Shown here: piece by piece, positions 3,673 through 40,395 of the stretch
Position numbering within the stretch: position 1 is the stretch's first letter
Layout of the letters: each line of letters begins with the position of its first letter
Source: Pegethrix bostrychoides GSE-TBD4-15B
Lineage (GTDB): Bacteria > Cyanobacteriota > Cyanobacteriia > Elainellales > Elainellaceae
Direction of reading: 5' to 3'
Length of the DNA stretch: 51,806 nt
Assembly (NCBI GenBank): GCA_019359155.1
Contig: JAHHHV010000016.1
Location: 1 to 51,806, forward strand
Notes under the pieces: generated by a model
Database searches by the model: none
What the model saw: the letters and a program-made list of their open reading frames with translations, nothing else
What the model was told of the DNA's origin: nothing
Translations under genes and position numbers: made by a program

Positions 3673-4788
3673 TCAACAGTGACAGGACAGCTTCTCAGCA
3701 TTGAGCTGAAACTGAATGCTGCCCGCTTTTTTCTTGCCGGGAATTTCCTGTGCGCCCAGAATATAACCCTCCTGCTGAAGCTCTTCCACCGTGCGCCAAA
3801 AAATCTGGTTGTTGCGCGAAGAGTTACTGCCCAAGAGATCTAGGTTTTTGAAAAGATACTGCTTGGAAATAATTAAACACTGACCATCTCGTAGCGCATC
3901 CCACTTCATGCGGCTTGCCAGATAGATCAGCAGCTTTGTCTTATAGTCCGATTTAGCGTTGCTGCCCAGCTTTTGGCTGATGTCAATATCACTCGCAAAC
4001 AGCACGTAGTCACCCGTGCGGGCTGGGCCATCGAAAAACTCTAGCGAAATCGTATAGGCATCTGCCAGCTCATAGGTGTAGTCAGCCGCTTTAGAGAGAT
4101 CAAAGTCGCGCGGCACGTTGTCGATTTCGTAGTCTTTAATCCGCAGCACGCTTTTAATCATGACCTTTGCGCCCAGTTGGTTGCCCTTTTGCAACGACTG
4201 CGCCATCACCAGCTCAGTCCGATGCAACGCCACCAAATCGCGGTTAAACTGCGAGCGTAGTTTCGAGGCAAAGCCGCCATCCTTCGTGCGCGTATAGCCC
4301 AGATGCTCCAGCAGGTCGTTTGAGCGAAACGAGACAATTGGGCCATTGCCCTGCTCCGCCGCCAGCTTATAGAGGTAGAGCACAATCGAAACCTGACGCG
4401 GATTGAGAAACGTCAGCAGCGCCATAAACAGTCGCTGGATCTTGCGATCCTGGATCTTTTCTAATCCCTTGCTCACGCCCTGGTCTGTACAGGCTTGCAA
4501 GTCGAGCAGCGCGTACTGCGCCTTTAGTTCCTGCCACTCTTCTTCGCTCAGGTTTTCCAGCGGCACTCGCCGAATCACCGCCACCTCGCTGCTCTCTTTG
4601 GAGTCCGCCTCTACCTGCATTTCCAGGTAGTGCCCTTCCGCATCAGACCGCAAAATCGGCAGATGCACATCTGGATTTTTGAGCGAAACCGCAGCGCGCG
4701 GCAGCACCATCAAGAGCTGACCATCAACCGGGAAGAAGCGATTTTTCGGGGAAGCAACCCGCAAACCGGACTTAAACGCACTCTGCAT
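3673..4788 (-). CDS. Iteron-type replication initiator-like protein (tandem winged helix)
   Basis: The 371-residue protein is laid out like plasmid RepA/TrfA-type initiators. The N-terminal region (1-110) is followed by a probable first winged helix (about 115-200), where VSFRSNDLLEHLGY and a spaced SKLRSQFNRDLVALHRT match the 'L..LG...Y.KLR..L..L' pattern of Rep WH1 domains. A second winged helix (about 280-350) contains TKLLIYLASRM, YLFKNLDLLG and FWRTVEELQQEGYI. Six directly repeated 18-bp sequences lie upstream of its start (4926-5219), the classic rep-iteron arrangement. Predicted role: binding the iterons and opening the origin. No partition genes are adjacent. This is a fold-pattern inference, not a homology hit. 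Confidence 0.6.
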   Translation of the reverse strand: MQSAFKSGLRVASPKNRFFPVDGQLLMVLPRAAVSLKNPDVHLPILRSDAEGHYLEMQVEADSKESSEVAVIRRVPLENLSEEEWQELKAQYALLDLQACTDQGVSKGLEKIQDRKIQRLFMALLTFLNPRQVSIVLYLYKLAAEQGNGPIVSFRSNDLLEHLGYTRTKDGGFASKLRSQFNRDLVALHRTELVMAQSLQKGNQLGAKVMIKSVLRIKDYEIDNVPRDFDLSKAADYTYELADAYTISLEFFDGPARTGDYVLFASDIDISQKLGSNAKSDYKTKLLIYLASRMKWDALRDGQCLIISKQYLFKNLDLLGSNSSRNNQIFWRTVEELQQEGYILGAQEIPGKKKAGSIQFQLNAEKLSCHC

Positions 4789-4799
4789 ATGAAATTTGG

Positions 4800-4920
4800 C
4801 TGGAATAAACTGGAATAAACCATCAATTCGAGATTGTGACCAGATCCTACAGCAGTTTTACCAAAACCACACATCTGGATTTCTTTTTTTCAAAAATTAA
4901 TCTAGACGCTAGATATAGCG
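4800..4920. promoter_or_regulatory. AT-rich leader with palindrome, probable rep control/unwinding region
   Basis: Between the Rep-like start codon and the first iteron lie several elements. There is a tandem pair of TGGAATAAAC (4801-4820), a T-run and A/T-rich stretch (4878-4901), and the inverted repeat CGCTA-GATA-TAGCG (4907-4920). Such AT-rich DNA next to iterons is typical of a DNA-unwinding element, and a palindrome next to the rep promoter is a usual autorepressor site. Both roles are inferred from position. Confidence 0.4.
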
Positions 4921-4925
4921 TTATT

Positions 4926-5219
4926 GCCTATAACTCCAGCGGATGATTTTGTCAGATTGCCTATAACTCCGGCGGAGATTTTTGGCTTGTCAGACTGACA
5001 GATGTACCATAGGCTGCCTGTAACTCCGGCGGAGATTTGCTCACCGTGGTGCTGGGCTTTGCTGACTGCAACCGATCACCCGTTGTAGGCAGCTCATCTT
5101 AACCCAGCTTTCATCTCGGCGCTGCAACCGACGCTATAACTCCGGCGGATAAAGCCATGTCAGACCCCCGAATTATGGCCTGTAACTCCGGCGGATCTTT
5201 TGGCTGTTACTCCGGCGTA
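4926..5219 (+). repeat. Six direct iterons, consensus GCCTATAACTCCGGCGGA
   Basis: Copies lie at 4926-4943, 4959-4976, 5016-5033, 5132-5149, 5178-5195 and 5202-5219, all on the plus strand. The core AACTCCGGCGGA is exact in copies 2-5; copy 1 has one change (AACTCCAGCGGA) and copy 6 is degenerate (TACTCCGGCGTA). Start-to-start spacing is 33, 57, 116, 46 and 24 bp, so this is not a CRISPR array. Other elements are interspersed: a perfect palindrome TGTCAG-A-CTGACA (4988-5000) and two CTGCAACCGA boxes (5066-5075, 5122-5131). I read the array as the binding sites of the adjacent Rep-like protein. Confidence 0.75.
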
Positions 5220-5341
5220 TGGCACCCAAAACCCGCTTGAGATCCCTAAAAATCGGTGCTAACCTCTCAGCAATTCTGATCGATTGTAAGGAGTCACCCC
5301 AACCTAATTTCTAAGTCGAGTTATCAAGTCAAGCTGCCACG

Positions 5342-6992: not shown

Positions 6993-7805
6993 CTACTGCA
7001 TCAGCTTGGGCAGGTAAGTTTCCAACACTGAGACTGAAATTGCGGCAGTGTCAGCATCTCCCGGCAGGCTGGGGTTGATTTCAGTGTTAATCCCAACCAC
7101 CTCGCCGTTCTGGTTGAGCAGCGGTCCACCCGAGTTGCCGGGATGAACTTCAGTATTGGTGAGCAGAATTCCGTCTGTGGTAATTTGCTTGAGCTGCCCT
7201 TGCGTCACCACGTCGGCTCGTCCATACGGTGCGCCAATTGCCCAGACGGGTTCTCCAGCGTTGGGCAGGCGGTCGCTGAACTGAGCAACCGGCAGATTGC
7301 TGACTCCCTCGACTTGCACCAGCGCTAGGTCATAAAAAATTCCGACCTCCCGACTGCCGACGGCTATGACGCGGGCAGGGCGCTCTTGACCATTGGCAAA
7401 CCGCACCGTCCACTGACTGCCGCCGTTGCGAACCACATGGCTGTTGGTGAGCACTAGCCCATTTGATGTCAGAATGACCCCGGAGCCAATGGACTGGTTG
7501 CCAGTTAGCATCACGACTGACTGATTGGCGGCGGCGATTGCGGCTGGTGTGCTGGTCTGACCATTCAGATTTGTCAGGCCGTTGGTCAGGCCATTGGTCA
7601 AGCCGTTGGCTAAGCTGCCTGAACTAGCGATATCGGGCTGGGAAATAGCGTCTCGCGACGGGCGGCGCCCCAACGCCTGCTGCACCCAACTCCCGGCGTT
7701 TGTATAAAAGAACAGCTGCCTGATGCCCAGCACCAGCAGCGTGGCGGTGAGCATCACTCGCATCAGCTCAGCCGTCTTTATGTCCTTGCCAAAGTTTTTC
7801 AACAT
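6993..7805 (-). CDS. Membrane-anchored trypsin-like serine protease (no PDZ)
   Basis: The 270-residue protein has an N-terminal hydrophobic anchor (about 15-34, VMLTATLLVLGIRQLFF) and a linker with NGLT repeated three times (12-bp DNA repeat 7573-7608). An S1C chymotrypsin fold follows. The triad is visible: His in TNSHVV (about 122), Asp in FYDLALVQ (about 158) and Ser in HPGNSGGPLL (about 222). It is shorter than DegP/HhoA because the PDZ domain is absent. The likely location is periplasmic or membrane-tethered, with a housekeeping proteolysis role. Divergent from the deacetylase-like gene. Confidence 0.85.
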   Translation of the reverse strand: MLKNFGKDIKTAELMRVMLTATLLVLGIRQLFFYTNAGSWVQQALGRRPSRDAISQPDIASSGSLANGLTNGLTNGLTNLNGQTSTPAAIAAANQSVVMLTGNQSIGSGVILTSNGLVLTNSHVVRNGGSQWTVRFANGQERPARVIAVGSREVGIFYDLALVQVEGVSNLPVAQFSDRLPNAGEPVWAIGAPYGRADVVTQGQLKQITTDGILLTNTEVHPGNSGGPLLNQNGEVVGINTEINPSLPGDADTAAISVSVLETYLPKLMQ

Positions 7806-15053: not shown

Positions 15054-16907
15054 ATGCCCCAGCCCGAATCCCAGCCCGAATCCCAGTATCCCACGATCCT
15101 CGATCTGTTCTATGAGCGAGCCGCTGGCGCAACGGCCAATCAGGTGGCCTATCGATTTCTCAAGGGCGATCAGGCTTCTAGCCTGACCTACGGCGAACTC
15201 TATCAGCAGGCGGGTGCGGTCGCTCACTGGCTTCAGGCGCAGACTGCTCCAGGTGCGTGCGTGCTGTTGGTCTATCCCTACGAGGCAGGGCTGGAATTTA
15301 TCGCCGCTTTTTTGGGCTGTCTGCTGGCAGGCCGGGTGGCAGTATCGGGGCATCCGCCGCGCGCTCAGTCGGGCTGGACGGAGTTGGCTGCTCGGCTCAA
15401 AGATTCTGGGGCTGAGGTCTTGCTCTCGACTCAAACGCTGCTGCCCAAGCTGACGGCCAGATTTGCCGCGCTTACCGCCGCTGTCACCGCCTGCGCCACC
15501 GATCAACTCGCGCCCGCCGTCTGGACAGCCCGCTCCATCCCGCCTGACCAGATCGCCTTTTTGCAATATACCTCTGGCTCGACGGGACAGCCCAAGGGTG
15601 TGATCATTACCCACCAAAACCTGATCCAAAATCAGCGCATGTTGCAGCTTGCCTTTGGCCATACTGCCGAATCGGTGGGGATGGGCTGGCTGCCGCTGTT
15701 TCACGATATGGGGTTGATTGGCAACGTGCTGCAAGCGCTCTATCTGGGCGCGTCCTGCGTGCTGATGTCGCCGATTGAGTTTGTGCAGCAGCCGATTCGC
15801 TGGTTGCAAGCCATCTCAACCTACCGCGCCACCACCAGCGGTGCCCCCAACTTTGCCTATGATCTGCTCTGTCGCAAGGTGACTGCTGCCCAGCTCGCCC
15901 AGCTTGACCTGAGCTGCTGGGAGATAGCCTTCACTGGGGCTGAACCTGTCCGACTCGAAACGCTGAAGCGGTTTAGCCAGAAGTTTGGCAGCTGCGGCTT
16001 CCAGCGGGAGGCGTTTTATCCCTGCTATGGAATGGCTGAGGCAACGCTGTTGATTACGGGTGGGCAGAAGCTGTGCGAACCCAAAATTGTCCAGGTTGAG
16101 GAAGTAGCGCTGGGACAAGATCGGGTGATACTGACCGCAGATTCACCCAGCCGGACGCTGGTGAGCTGCGGTAAAGGCTGGCTAGATACCGAACTTGTGA
16201 TTGTCGATCCGGCTACAGCTCAGCCCGCTTTGCCCACTCAAGTGGGCGAAGTTTGGGTGGCTGGCTCTGGCTTGGGACAAGGGTATTGGCAGCAGCCATC
16301 TGAAACCGAACGCAGCTTTCGAGCCAAGCTAGACTCCTCAGATCGGCAATATCTGCGGACGGGCGATCTGGGTTTTTTGCAGGACGGCGAGCTGTTCATC
16401 ACCGGACGGCTGCATGATGTCCTAGTGTTTTGGGGCTTTAATCACTATCCACAGCAGATTGAGCAGACCGTAGAAGCCTGCCATCCGGGGTTTCGCGCTC
16501 ATGCCGGCGCGGCAGTTGCAGTGAACGTAGACGGCACAGAGCGGCTAGTAGTGCTGCAAGAGCTGGAGCGCCAGCATCGAGATTTGCGCGCGGCAGAGGT
16601 GGTGGAGCAGCTGCGCTGGCAAATATTTGATGCCCATTTTCTCGATCTATTTAGCCTCGTGTTGCTGAAGCCGGGGGGATTGCCCAGAACCTCCAGCGGC
16701 AAGGTGCGGCGCTCTGCCTGTCGTGAGTTGCTGCTAGCGCAGCAGCTCGAAATTCTCGATCGGTGGCAGCTGCCACCAGATAGCCCTAGCGATCCAAATG
16801 CCGTCTTGGAGCGTTACCTCAATCCGGCGATCCACCTCAAGCGCTATGCTGACTTGGCTCAAGGCAAATTGCGACACTGGCTAGCAGCGTTAAAATCTTC
16901 GGGCTAG
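15054..16907 (+). CDS. Fatty acyl-AMP ligase (FAAL)
   Basis: The protein has 617 residues. Adenylate-forming motifs are YTSGSTGQPKGVIITHQNL (about 172), WLPLFHDMGLIG (about 205), YGMAEATLLI (about 323), RTGDLGFLQDGELFITGR (about 435) and LPRTSSGKVRR near the end. The MGWLPLFHDMGL motif and length are FAAL-like. The reaction is fatty acid + ATP to acyl-AMP, usually delivered to a carrier protein. No polyketide synthase or carrier gene is adjacent; a DUF1400 hydrolase follows 5 bp downstream. The start at ATG 15054 is followed by a duplicated QPES (12-bp repeat). Confidence 0.85.
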   Translation: MPQPESQPESQYPTILDLFYERAAGATANQVAYRFLKGDQASSLTYGELYQQAGAVAHWLQAQTAPGACVLLVYPYEAGLEFIAAFLGCLLAGRVAVSGHPPRAQSGWTELAARLKDSGAEVLLSTQTLLPKLTARFAALTAAVTACATDQLAPAVWTARSIPPDQIAFLQYTSGSTGQPKGVIITHQNLIQNQRMLQLAFGHTAESVGMGWLPLFHDMGLIGNVLQALYLGASCVLMSPIEFVQQPIRWLQAISTYRATTSGAPNFAYDLLCRKVTAAQLAQLDLSCWEIAFTGAEPVRLETLKRFSQKFGSCGFQREAFYPCYGMAEATLLITGGQKLCEPKIVQVEEVALGQDRVILTADSPSRTLVSCGKGWLDTELVIVDPATAQPALPTQVGEVWVAGSGLGQGYWQQPSETERSFRAKLDSSDRQYLRTGDLGFLQDGELFITGRLHDVLVFWGFNHYPQQIEQTVEACHPGFRAHAGAAVAVNVDGTERLVVLQELERQHRDLRAAEVVEQLRWQIFDAHFLDLFSLVLLKPGGLPRTSSGKVRRSACRELLLAQQLEILDRWQLPPDSPSDPNAVLERYLNPAIHLKRYADLAQGKLRHWLAALKSSG

Positions 16908-16912
16908 GCTTC

Positions 16913-18556
16913 ATGCAAAAGCGGACTCTAACTCATTTGTTGATTCTAGGAACTCTAGTATTTCTAGTTATTGCTTTTCCAGTCAGAGCAGCTGAGCGAA
17001 TCTATCTTAACTACGGTATTTTAGGGCGCTCGATTGCCGTTTCTGAGCTAGAGAATTTTGCCGAGAGTGGCGAATCGCAAGGCGTACTCAACGATATTCT
17101 CAAATTTGTTCCGCCCGAACGCTGGAGCGAACTCAGGGGAGTTTTGCAGGCCAGCTATCAGGTCGATCCGCGAATGATTCAGCGCTTTGCCTATACTGCA
17201 CCGGGCGAGCGACTCTTCCGCGAAATCGGCGAGTTTTTGCAGTCTGAGGCGAGCTTGAATGGTGGACAGGGAATTCGCTCAGCTGCAATTTTGGCGACGG
17301 CAGATCCGGAGGGCATCAGCGTGATCCGATTTCTGCAAAAATTCCCAACCGATATACGAATTAATCTGGCGCGACTGCTGGCTCTAGTACAGCGAGTCAT
17401 GGCTATCTTTCAGCAAACGCAGCAGGTGACTCAGCTCTTACATCAGCAGACGATTCAGCAAAGCGGCCAGCAGAGTGGCCAGCAGAGCGGCCAGCAGAGC
17501 GCTGTAGTGCCGCTTGATCTGTCGCTTGATCTACGCCAAACTGGAGTGTTCAGCTACGCTAAGCAAACGCTAAATCTAAATGATACCGAACGTCAGCGTG
17601 TATTAATCACGGATCTCTATTTGCCAGAGACTCAAAATCAGCCGCTGCCGCTTATCGTGATGTCAAACGGTCTGGGAGCCAGACGCAGCGGCCTAGAAGA
17701 TCTTGCAATGCACTTGGCCTCTCACGGCTTTGCAGTCGCCATCCCCGACCATCCCGGCAGCGATTTGCTGCGCCTGCGCCAATTTTACGAGGGACGCGAA
17801 CCCGAAAACTTTGATGCCAGCGAATATTTGCAGCGGCCTCAAGATATTAGCTTTTTGCTAGATCAGCTGGAGCGGCTCAGTCCAGATTTGAAGCAGCCCC
17901 TGAATCTTCGGCAGGTCGGAATTTTTGGCTATTCGTTTGGTGGCAGCACGGCACTCGCTCTGGCTGGTGCGAGACTGGACTCAGCGTTTTTGCAGTCTGA
18001 CTGTCAGAGCCAGCTGGGCTTGTTTAATATCTCGCTGCTCTATCAGTGCCGAGCGCTGGAGCTGCCCCAGGATGCGGCATTCTCAGCTTCATTTAAAGAT
18101 GATCGAATTGCCGCTGCCTACCTGTTTGTGCCGTTTGGCAAAAGCCTGTTTGGCTCCAGCCTAGCCGAATTGCAGATCCCGATTCTTTGGCAGGTGACCG
18201 ATCTCGATATCCTCACGCCGCTAGTGGTGGAGCAGCTGCCTGCATTTGAGCAGCTGATGACTGGGCAGTCGGGTGAGCGCTATCTGGCTCTGACGCAGGG
18301 CTTGCCCCATGCGCGCGTCACCTACGATGCAATTGGCCGACTTGGCAACAGCTCGCTATCTTGGGAAACGCTGGCTGATTTGGGTCACGCCTACCAAAAC
18401 GCGCTCAGCCTTGCTTTCTTTCAGCTGCATCTGGCTCAAAACCCAGCCTATCGCCCCTATCTGACTCCAGCCTATGCTAAGGCCATTAGCCAAGATCCCT
18501 ATCCACTCAGCTTGCAGATCGACTGGATTCGCCCCGAGCCAGCTCTGACTCCCTGA
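16913..18556 (+). CDS. DUF1400 / alpha-beta hydrolase, exported
   Basis: The protein has 547 residues. A signal peptide or anchor (LILGTLVFLVIAFPVRAAE) precedes the cyanobacterial DUF1400 domain (about 25-140, RIYLNYGILGRSIAVSELENFAESG). A QQSG repeat linker (12-bp units 17457-17501) leads to an alpha/beta hydrolase. The nucleophile elbow is FGYSFGGSTALAL (Ser about 342), the oxyanion region VMSNGLGARRSGLEDLA, and the probable catalytic His lies in the late LGHAYQ. Likely a periplasmic esterase or lipase. Five bases separate it from the FAAL gene, so the pair probably acts on the same lipid. Confidence 0.8.
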   Translation: MQKRTLTHLLILGTLVFLVIAFPVRAAERIYLNYGILGRSIAVSELENFAESGESQGVLNDILKFVPPERWSELRGVLQASYQVDPRMIQRFAYTAPGERLFREIGEFLQSEASLNGGQGIRSAAILATADPEGISVIRFLQKFPTDIRINLARLLALVQRVMAIFQQTQQVTQLLHQQTIQQSGQQSGQQSGQQSAVVPLDLSLDLRQTGVFSYAKQTLNLNDTERQRVLITDLYLPETQNQPLPLIVMSNGLGARRSGLEDLAMHLASHGFAVAIPDHPGSDLLRLRQFYEGREPENFDASEYLQRPQDISFLLDQLERLSPDLKQPLNLRQVGIFGYSFGGSTALALAGARLDSAFLQSDCQSQLGLFNISLLYQCRALELPQDAAFSASFKDDRIAAAYLFVPFGKSLFGSSLAELQIPILWQVTDLDILTPLVVEQLPAFEQLMTGQSGERYLALTQGLPHARVTYDAIGRLGNSSLSWETLADLGHAYQNALSLAFFQLHLAQNPAYRPYLTPAYAKAISQDPYPLSLQIDWIRPEPALTP

Positions 18557-28935: not shown

Positions 28936-29877
28936 TTAGGCAAGGCGACGACGACGAGCCGCTGCCAGCAGACCTACAGCCGCCAGACCTGCCATCACTG
29001 AAGATTCGGGTACGTCTTGCAGCTCGCCAGACAGCACTAGACCGTCGTTACCGCATTCTGCGAACAGGCTGGCGATGAAGCTACCGTTTTGGCCGTTGTT
29101 CAGGAATGCCCGATCGACGCTAAAGCCGAAGGTGTGGCTGCCCACTGCGTTGAAGTTGCCGAAATCTAGACCCAGTCCGCTGAAGTTGCTGATCATTTGA
29201 ATGCCGCTCAGGAAGCTGCCAGCTGCCATGTGAGTGGGCGCGGCGGTTTTGCTGTTGTCGCCAAAATAGCTGGTGCTGACGGGCATATCGCCATAGGAGT
29301 CAACTCCACCTAGTCGCTTGATGGTGTCGGCATGTTGCTGCATGGTCTTGTAGCCGGAGTTTTTGGTGGTGAGGCTGGTGGCCGTCACGTCGTCGTAGAG
29401 TCCCAGTTCGGGGGTATATTTCGTGGTTGTCGTGACTGGCTTGTTGTTTTTGCCAATCGTTGTTTCCTGCTTGGTGAACTGGGTGTCGTTTGTGGCATCA
29501 AACCGAATGGCTTGAAGATTGCCGCTGCTGAAGCTGGCGGGTTGAGTGCCAGGTTTTGCTCCGGGCTGGGAAAAGTTCAAAAATAGATCGCCGTAGCCGA
29601 TGCTGCCGTTGAGGGAATTTTTGTCTTTATAGCCATCTAGACTCAGGTTAGAATTAATCGCAAAATAAACCTTGTCTTTAGTTTGCTTATAGGCCATGCC
29701 GTAAAATTCAAACTTGCTCTTAGCGCCAATGACGTTACCTTCAGTGCCGTCGTTGAACGAGTCGATGGAATAGTTCCAGCCATTGTGTAGCGTGCCTGCC
29801 TGCACCTGCTGAGCCGTAAAGGTGAAGAGGAGAGCGACGGTGCCGACTGTAGCTTTAACTGCGGTACTAAGTTTCAT
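28936..29877 (-). CDS. PEP-CTERM-type exosortase-dependent surface protein (XDD-like)
   Basis: The protein has 313 residues with a signal peptide (LSTAVKATVGTVALLFTFTAQQVQA). The mature domain begins HNGWNYSIDSFNDGTEG and ends FAECGNDGLVLSGE. The C-terminal sorting signal is VPESSVMAGLAAVGLLAAARRRR: a V/PES motif, one hydrophobic helix and an Arg cluster. The CGND-type ending matches the exosortase-dependent XDD families of cyanobacteria as I remember them. Predicted export by Sec, processing by exosortase and location on the surface or in extracellular matrix. No exosortase is in the window. Confidence 0.75.
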   Translation of the reverse strand: MKLSTAVKATVGTVALLFTFTAQQVQAGTLHNGWNYSIDSFNDGTEGNVIGAKSKFEFYGMAYKQTKDKVYFAINSNLSLDGYKDKNSLNGSIGYGDLFLNFSQPGAKPGTQPASFSSGNLQAIRFDATNDTQFTKQETTIGKNNKPVTTTTKYTPELGLYDDVTATSLTTKNSGYKTMQQHADTIKRLGGVDSYGDMPVSTSYFGDNSKTAAPTHMAAGSFLSGIQMISNFSGLGLDFGNFNAVGSHTFGFSVDRAFLNNGQNGSFIASLFAECGNDGLVLSGELQDVPESSVMAGLAAVGLLAAARRRRLA

Positions 29878-39894: not shown

Positions 39895-40395
39895 ATGACC
39901 TATACCACTTCTAACTCTTCAGCTGAGCTGCTAAGCGCTTTTCAGGCGTTGGATGTCGATCAACAGCTGGCGCTATTTTATTTCATCTATCGAGAGATGG
40001 GAGACACGGTGACACCTGCTGCTCCCGCTGCCAGCACTGTCTCGCCTGAAATCGCTGAAGGTTTGTTCAACCAAGTCAAGGAGCTTTCACAGGAAGAGCA
40101 ACTTCAGCTCCAGCGCGATTTGATCAACCGCCAGAACAAGCCTTTGACCCGTCAATATGGCGCGCTGAGTGACACAACCAAGTTGCTGTTTTGGTACAAC
40201 TTGGCACAAGGGATGGACAACGGCACCATTATTCCGATGCCCAACGACTATCAGCTCTCTGATTCAGCTAAGACTGTGCTGAATCAAACCAAAGGACTCG
40301 ACTTTGATGAGCAAATTACGCTCTTTCGCAATCTAGTTTCACCGATGGGCGTTGATCCGACCAGTGCCGCTCAAGATCCAAACACTGGGCTGTAA
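39895..40395 (+). CDS. Helical carotenoid protein (OCP N-terminal domain homologue)
   Basis: The protein has 166 residues. The all-helical OCP N-terminal domain is recognisable: AFQALDVDQQLALFYFIYREMG, then NRQNKPLTRQYGALSDTTKLLFWYNLAQGMDNGTIIPMP and LDFDEQITLFRN. There is no NTF2-like C-terminal domain, so it is a stand-alone HCP. HCPs bind one keto-carotenoid and quench singlet oxygen or phycobilisome excitation depending on clade. No CTDH, OCP or FRP gene is in the window. A strong GGAGG precedes the ATG. Confidence 0.9.
   Translation: MTYTTSNSSAELLSAFQALDVDQQLALFYFIYREMGDTVTPAAPAASTVSPEIAEGLFNQVKELSQEEQLQLQRDLINRQNKPLTRQYGALSDTTKLLFWYNLAQGMDNGTIIPMPNDYQLSDSAKTVLNQTKGLDFDEQITLFRNLVSPMGVDPTSAAQDPNTGL

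Follow-up and report, generated by a model that had tools for sequence, protein, structure and literature searches.

The DNA analyzed here is the entire contig C16 (JAHHHV010000016.1; 51,806 bp, hereafter the window) of the 92-contig draft assembly (genome 5.72 Mb) of the cyanobacterium Pegethrix bostrychoides GSE-TBD4-15B. Near its left end lies a cassette that consists of a gene for a Rep-type initiator of 371 aa (P0001; 3673–4788, minus strand), an AT-rich stretch (4800–4949), an array of six direct 18-bp iterons, and a gene for a predicted primase of 505 aa (P0002; 5433–6950, plus strand), which is divergent from the rep gene.

P0001, an open reading frame product, showed nothing above the cut-off in Pfam (only YlmH_1st, E 0.17) and no match in NCBIfam, and no solved initiator was found when PDB sequences were searched by phmmer and with a profile. 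An AlphaFold2 (AF2) model of P0001 built with 41 sequences was confident (predicted local distance difference test (pLDDT) 88.7, predicted template modeling score (pTM) 0.88). Foldseek comparison of this model with the PDB gave domains 2–3 of RctB (E 3.9e-6) and RepE54 (E 1.9e-4) as the best matches. By VIA-align, the model was superimposed on RctB with Z 13.1 (249 residues; root-mean-square deviation (rmsd) 5.2), on RepE54 with Z 11.5 (204 residues, rmsd 4.6), and on Pi of R6K with Z 10.2 (215 residues, rmsd 4.2); no row of another kind exceeded Z 6.8. RctB, RepE, and Pi are iteron-binding replication initiators, and the predicted fold of P0001 contains the two winged-helix domains typical of this group. 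P0001 is thus predicted to fall in the structural class of tandem winged-helix initiators and in no named sequence family tested. A phage origin of the cassette was rejected, as P0001 had no match in 50,697 phage records.

The iterons lie on the plus strand at 4927–5220, upstream of the 371-aa gene: iteron 1 (CCTATAACTCCAGCGGAT, 4927–4944), iteron 2 (CCTATAACTCCGGCGGAG, 4960–4977), iteron 3 (CCTGTAACTCCGGCGGAG, 5017–5034), iteron 4 (GCTATAACTCCGGCGGAT, 5133–5150), iteron 5 (CCTGTAACTCCGGCGGAT, 5179–5196), and iteron 6 (GCTGTTACTCCGGCGTAT, 5203–5220). A pattern search for the CTRTWACTCCRGCGKAK-type repeat on this strand returned 4928–4944, 4961–4977, 5018–5034, 5134–5150, 5180–5196, and 5204–5220, with spacings of 33, 57, 116, 46, and 24 bp. 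All four exact copies of the 12-base core AACTCCGGCGGA in the window fall within the array. When up to two mismatches to this core were allowed, 17 matches were found in the window, compared with a mean of 3.8 in 100 dinucleotide shuffles; the iterons are not due to chance, because none of the 100 shuffles reached 17. A genome-wide search (5.72 Mb) for the extended core TAACTCCGGCGGA, allowing at most one mismatch, gave seven sites, five of them in the window array. Only this clustering is unusual, and not the genome-wide number, since the reversed pattern used as a control gave 20 sites.

The AT-rich stretch (4800–4949), located between the start of rep and the first iterons, has a GC content of 34–35%, compared with 52–57% at 4950–5199, and is a candidate DNA unwinding element. 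It holds a perfect palindrome, CGCTAGATATAGCG (4907–4920), which is a candidate rep operator by motif match. The pattern CGCTANATNTAGCG with at most one mismatch matched the window only at this palindrome (expected number 0.11), and one match was reached in 11 of 100 shuffles; comparable palindromes were seen in some of the related leaders. A direct-repeat array beside a rep gene and an AT-rich region beside the array, which would be the site of melting, are features of iteron replicons. The original prediction, made from the letters of this DNA, had described two probable winged-helix regions, six direct 18-bp repeats with an exact core in four, and an AT-rich leader with palindromes. The first was borne out on the predicted model and the second by the pattern search and the shuffles, and one perfect palindrome was located in the leader. 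Its description as a plasmid-type Rep/iteron module therefore stood, but three things had escaped it: the divergently oriented primase gene, the fact that array spacing is conserved, and the shortening of the array described below.

P0002 had no match in Pfam. The mean pLDDT of its AF2 model was 77.7, and the core was confident. In structure comparison, this core was superimposed on the PrimPol domain of CRISPR-associated Prim-Pol (CAPP) with Z 17.0 (187 residues, rmsd 3.1), on LigD polymerase domains with Z of about 10–11, and on eukaryotic primase with Z of about 7–10. Sequence-profile similarity was weak: the LigD polymerase domain (PolDom; E 0.019) ranked below TATA-box-binding protein (E 0.0072), an evidently unrelated match in the variable C-terminal part. 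The length of the C-terminus varies across the whole family. Residues D91, D93, and H134 were invariant in 30 sequences; we take D91/D93 to be the DxD metal-binding motif and H134 to be the motif II histidine of archaeo-eukaryotic primase (AEP) enzymes. P0002 is thus predicted, from the model and these residues, to be an AEP-type, PrimPol-like primase with the AEP catalytic fold, the DxD motif, and the motif II histidine. In the same genome, a further primase gene of the P0002 type (60% identical) is truncated by the start of another contig (C54:1–13945; L213), on which genes for ParA, ParB, and topoisomerase I are also present; a search of the genome for a second Rep gene gave none. A P0002 homologue of 32% identity is also encoded at 16058–17272 of the 44,343-bp Synechocystis 6803 plasmid NC_005231.1, presumably pSYSG, as a candidate replication protein.

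For the primase gene, motif matching identified a candidate extended -10 promoter at 5237–5265 on the plus strand (TTGAGA, 17 bp, and TGC before TAACCT), and its -35 starts 16 bp after the last window iteron. We compared this region with the 60 evaluable leaders of 62 P0001-related loci (L009 and L064 had no leader). The promoter motif was present in 44 of the 60 leaders, compared with 6 of 60 on the reverse strand, and in 39 of these 44 the -35 lay exactly 16 or 17 bp past an iteron. A count on a different set with a slightly different pattern gave 61 of 84, with 12 of 84 in the control. A generic promoter scan did not report the 5237–5265 motif because TAACCT agrees with TATAAT at only three of six positions. 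As the last iteron stands at a near-fixed distance upstream of the candidate promoter, iteron-bound Rep probably also sets the expression of the primase.

The array itself was conserved in the relatives. Counted with at most five mismatches to the consensus CCTGTAACTCCGGCGTAT, at least three iterons were present on the expected strand in 54 of the 60 leaders and on the reverse strand in none. A strict two-block array with gaps of about 25, 31, 25, 73, 25, 31, 25, and 24 bp was found in 22 leaders, and longer plasmid arrays gain units of 31 + 25 bp, giving 14 sites in genome G271 and 18 in G149 and G167. Nine plasmid-size replicons with a leader were examined (pMB05, Allocoleopsis pMIC7113.01, and those of G241, G256, G189, G271, G149, G167, and G065), and seven of them had 10–18 iterons at near-fixed spacings. 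The divergent layout of Rep, iterons, and primase was also seen on the Acaryochloris plasmid pMB05 and on contigs of 345–964 kb in six genomes of 2–10 contigs (G241, G256, G189, G271, G149, and G167). Judged by this comparison, the window array of six sites is a shortened version of the 10–18 sites in most of the plasmid relatives examined. Leptolyngbya chromosomal loci had 4–5 iterons, at matching positions. In Nodosilinea LEGE 06152, two cassette copies on two contigs (L045 and L069) were 99.5% identical over 4.5 kb, as a duplicate or an assembly effect.

At the thresholds used, 36 of the 62 loci had a P0002 homologue upstream of the Rep gene and on the other strand; some of the remaining loci stop at contig ends. 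Other loci had an alternative partner of about 1040 aa. Eight of these were scanned: six carried DUF3854, the domain of CyRepA, one carried DUF3987 (Allocoleopsis plasmid), and one was a glycosyltransferase at a locus also devoid of an array (L043). At some loci, such as L059, no partner was identified. Partner genes split in two frames were found beside a full-length Rep at L022 (probably DUF3854-type) and L033 (primase). The window's genome has a single DUF3854 gene (C4:56249–59611), and no iteron array of this kind was found there.

Rep was found in six plasmids of PLSDB, four at 67–77% and two at 28–30% identity. In the order, it was present in 27 of 36 genomes. All five genomes of Elainella, the genus of the window, had one Rep copy without inner stops. 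Across the class, 67 of 388 genomes were positive with a 41-row profile and 66 of 388 with a single sequence, the extra match being partial (E 4e-4); hence no hidden distant branch of Rep was seen with this profile in the 388 genomes. Using contig size in genomes of few contigs as the basis for calling the main chromosome, we assigned the cassette, or the version with DUF3854, to the main chromosome of G190 (6.43 Mb) and of G205, G127, and G195 (5.7–6.3 Mb). The chromosomal placement in G282 is doubtful: the fetched 20-kb stretch contains 10 N, and the sister genome G167 has the cassette on a 345-kb contig. Contigs of 172–964 kb carried the cassette in G241, G256, G189, G271, G149, G167, and G065, and tpiA adjoins the L189 locus.

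Some genomes carry more than one copy, and these bear on the explanation that chromosomal iterons and Rep exclude plasmids by titrating or handcuffing incoming megaplasmids of the same type (incompatibility). Leaders were examined in three genomes with two full-length copies each (G005, G019, and G025), and in all three the copies belong to different iteron classes, TAAC and TCAC. There is a precedent in SGI1, a chromosomal island with a Rep/iteron origin that is described as destabilizing a coresident plasmid (PMC7433901). However, this pattern comes from three genomes only (G089, with four matches, was left out), whose copies derive from different clades anyway, and the two Nodosilinea LEGE 06152 copies, possibly an assembly duplicate, are of the same class. 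Plasmid exclusion also leaves the conserved primase unexplained, and we consider it unlikely.

In a quick tree with Shimodaira–Hasegawa approximate likelihood ratio test (SH-aLRT) support only, and with chromosomal location checked for some loci (G205, G127, and G195), the Elainella Rep copies formed a clade (SH-aLRT 97) nested in a larger clade of 24 rows (88), in which DUF3854-type loci are found as well. Array sizes within this larger clade were 8–11 (Phormidesmis), 7–8 (Myxacorys), and 4–5 (Leptolyngbya). This quick tree suggests an old capture, followed by exchange of partners and shortening of the array.

The setting of the window is likely chromosomal, because the contig, one of the 92 of the assembly, carries def, an FtsX-type gene, aat, and tRNA-Asn. 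No exact terminal overlap of at least 15 bases was found on it. Of the chromosomal neighbors named in the original prediction (ndhM, def, rnhA, and psbD), def was checked and confirmed, and its proposal of a plasmid-type Rep/iteron module in a chromosomal setting is backed by the Rep relatives on real plasmids and by the plasmid-size contigs with the same layout. On the right flank, an HtrA-like gene and a histone-deacetylase-like gene are common to the window, L010, L011, and L012, the deacetylase gene being broken in L012. The HtrA-like protease gene (6993–7805 in the window) adjoins the primase gene, and likewise in L010, L011, L012, and L014; in L014, no histone-deacetylase-like gene follows it within the fetched stretch. 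The left flank differs, Lin0512 being found in the window and L012 only. Neighbors on the contigs of the genus include asnS (L009), psbA (L010), and pyruvate kinase (L012). We also searched 36 genomes of the order for an empty site, at which the flanking genes would be present but the cassette absent. Lin0512 was present in 18 of them, and in relatives' loci it was never within about 1.5 kb of the histone-deacetylase-like gene; gene order is too shuffled, and therefore this comparison cannot reveal an insertion.

Plasmid kin and flanks that differ between genera could indicate a recently integrated plasmid or a decaying relic. Selection speaks otherwise. Between the window and the 97%-identical L009, the Rep gene showed a pN (non-synonymous) of 0.020 and a pS (synonymous) of 0.560; the other pairs had pS of 0.72–0.85, near or beyond saturation. 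By this measure, the Rep gene is under strong purifying selection. In four Elainella leaders, pairwise identity was 0.76 for the iterons, 0.86 for the promoter, and 0.37 for the rest between them, although these comparisons use alignments of repeats, which can favor repeats. The corresponding values were 0.72, 0.81, and 0.59 in seven Leptolyngbya-type leaders, and 0.83, 0.79, and 0.74, a smaller contrast, in four more distant leaders. As far as sequence comparison can tell, selection in the genus maintains the Rep protein, the promoter, and those iterons that remain. The cassette is thus not a decaying relic, because Rep is under strong purifying selection and the iterons and the promoter are conserved above the spacers; the single Rep copy without inner stops in all five genus genomes and the shared right flank likewise argue against recent integration or decay, which we regard as very improbable.

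We then considered whether the chromosome uses the cassette as its origin. Some cyanobacteria are described as replicating in a DnaA-independent, multi-origin manner, and in S. elongatus dnaA mutants, initiation can shift to an integrated plasmid origin (PMC7198777). These precedents would be compatible with a main origin that replaces DnaA-oriC, and the original prediction had left room for such a role, to be checked by dnaA, DnaA boxes, and GC skew. In the window's genome, however, dnaA was found at C71:95230–96567, and dnaA and dnaN were present in all 15 genomes tested. A 20-kb stretch at dnaN contained 12 DnaA-box-like sites, seven of which (two exact and five with one mismatch) clustered within about 200 bp, roughly 250–450 bp upstream of dnaN. 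The usual origin thus appears to be intact, which leaves the cassette no more than the role of a second origin; this check speaks against a sole origin. Two single-contig relatives of the same family (G029 and G030) also lack Rep, and replacement of the main origin has, in our judgment, only a slight chance of being correct. GC skew was uninformative, neither for nor against an origin: in the complete G190 chromosome, which has the cassette with a regular array (6.43 Mb, 60 samples of 20 kb), neither GC nor coding skew was V-shaped (shuffle p 0.58 and 0.65), and in the 299-kb contig G023:C5, no sign change occurred at the module (82.5 kb), the skew going from values close to zero or weakly positive ahead of the module to more positive ones over the following 40 kb. 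A bolder form of the idea is that a plasmid-derived second origin, with an RctB-like initiator, iterons, and a dedicated primase, fires on a family of cyanobacterial chromosomes, either normally or when DnaA is limiting; this seems rather improbable to us.

Taken together, the explanation we favor is that the chromosome captured a plasmid-type replicon cassette and retained it, alongside the DnaA-dnaN origin, as an accessory unit for Rep-dependent initiation and priming, and we hold it with about even confidence. By analogy, the cassette would function in the manner of an iteron-type Rep replicon equipped with a primase of its own. The RctB/RepE-like 371-aa initiator would bind the six direct iterons, melting of the adjoining AT-rich stretch would follow, and the exposed strand would be primed by the divergent AEP-type primase. 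Iteron-bound Rep probably controls the primase promoter at the same time, and the unit would act as an accessory initiation site alongside the normal origin.

The same promoter control could, however, be all that is left. If the origin function has been lost, the cassette may be a two-gene regulatory unit in which iteron-bound Rep controls the promoter of the primase (or DUF3854) gene and the primase serves fork repair or restart. The array was shortened in the genus and further shortened, at matching positions, to 4–5 sites in the Leptolyngbya chromosomal loci; within the leader, conservation is highest in the promoter and the iterons; and Rep is more conserved than its partner. All of these would suit such a unit. 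In contrast, an AT-rich stretch adjoins the array, several widely spaced iterons exceed what a single operator needs, and the identified partners are nearly always of a replication type (36 AEP; six DUF3854 and one DUF3987 of the eight scanned, with the L043 glycosyltransferase as the exception). We therefore rate the regulatory unit as possible, although doubtful.

Several observations also weigh against an accessory initiation unit. With dnaA and a DnaA-box cluster near dnaN present, the chromosome need not use the cassette as an origin. Rep was missing from nine of the 36 order genomes, both single-contig ones (G029 and G030) included, and is therefore not generally essential. The window array is shorter and less regular than the arrays of most plasmid relatives; among the latter, Allocoleopsis pMIC7113.01 had six iterons and the distant G065 (30% identity) none of this consensus. 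On Leptolyngbya-type chromosomes the partner is a different protein, and the primase is truncated or split in some relatives (440 aa in L057; two frames in L033), which would fit a fading origin function. Within the genus, the primase gene was less constrained than Rep (pN of about 0.27). The primase promoter and the palindrome are motif matches only, and the bias of repeat alignments noted above applies to the leader identities. Finally, a scan of the window for strict DnaA boxes (TT[AT]TCCACA), which did not extend to degenerate ones, gave no match.

Among known systems, RctB/ori2 of Vibrio cholerae chromosome 2 is closest to the cassette in initiator fold, and shares the direct iterons beside the initiator gene and the AT-rich stretch. 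RctB is described as a four-domain protein of 658 aa, and ori2, with its 11-, 12-, 29-, and 39-mers, drives a separate replicon (PMC6090056). The window Rep, in contrast, is 371 aa long and about 12–13% identical to RctB in sequence; its unit is located on a chromosomal contig and comes with a primase of its own. RepE (F plasmid) and Pi (R6K) share the direct-repeat array and the tandem winged-helix fold, predicted here, but the cassette Rep has no match to a Pfam Rep family, a divergent AEP primase gene is present, and the plasmid relatives have a two-block array with 25/31-bp alternation. At other loci, a DUF3854 protein like CyRepA of pSYSA and pCC5.2 replaces the primase beside the same Rep/iteron unit, whereas the window partner is a predicted AEP PrimPol. 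CyRepA homologues were reported on the chromosomes of 80 of 145 cyanobacteria, with a function needing validation (PMC10899382). The main text of that paper contains neither "iteron" nor "repeat", and that of PMC10079941 does not contain "winged". CAPP and the LigD polymerase domain have an AEP catalytic fold like that predicted for P0002, but their sequence identity to it is about 13–16%, and P0002 sits beside a Rep/iteron unit. The SGI1 replication module, like the cassette, is a plasmid-type rep/iteron origin residing in a chromosome, but SGI1 is reported to excise and to replicate with a helper plasmid (PMC7433901). No iteron/primase cassette of this kind in cyanobacteria was found among the listed titles and abstract openings of a literature search in which subscription journals were thinly covered. 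What is new is the combination of an RctB-like Rep, a phased two-block array, and a divergent AEP or DUF3854 primase, together with long residence on chromosomal contigs.

The initiators of large cyanobacterial plasmids are described as little known (PMC10899382), and what initiates chromosome copying in DnaA-free cyanobacteria is an open question. The cassette offers a specific candidate, with its protein and DNA sites defined and a primase dedicated to it, and both questions become directly testable through it. Its retention raises the question of a second way of starting chromosome copying in some cyanobacteria; if true, the second-origin reading would supply one initiator behind DnaA-independent, multi-origin replication in polyploid cyanobacteria. 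Cassettes of this type, present on megaplasmid-size contigs and kept under selection on chromosomal ones, may also serve as replicons for large vectors.

Elsewhere on the window, an exosortase-dependent XDD3 surface protein is encoded at 28936–29877, and the 166-aa product of 39895–40395 is homologous to the N-terminal domain of orange carotenoid protein.

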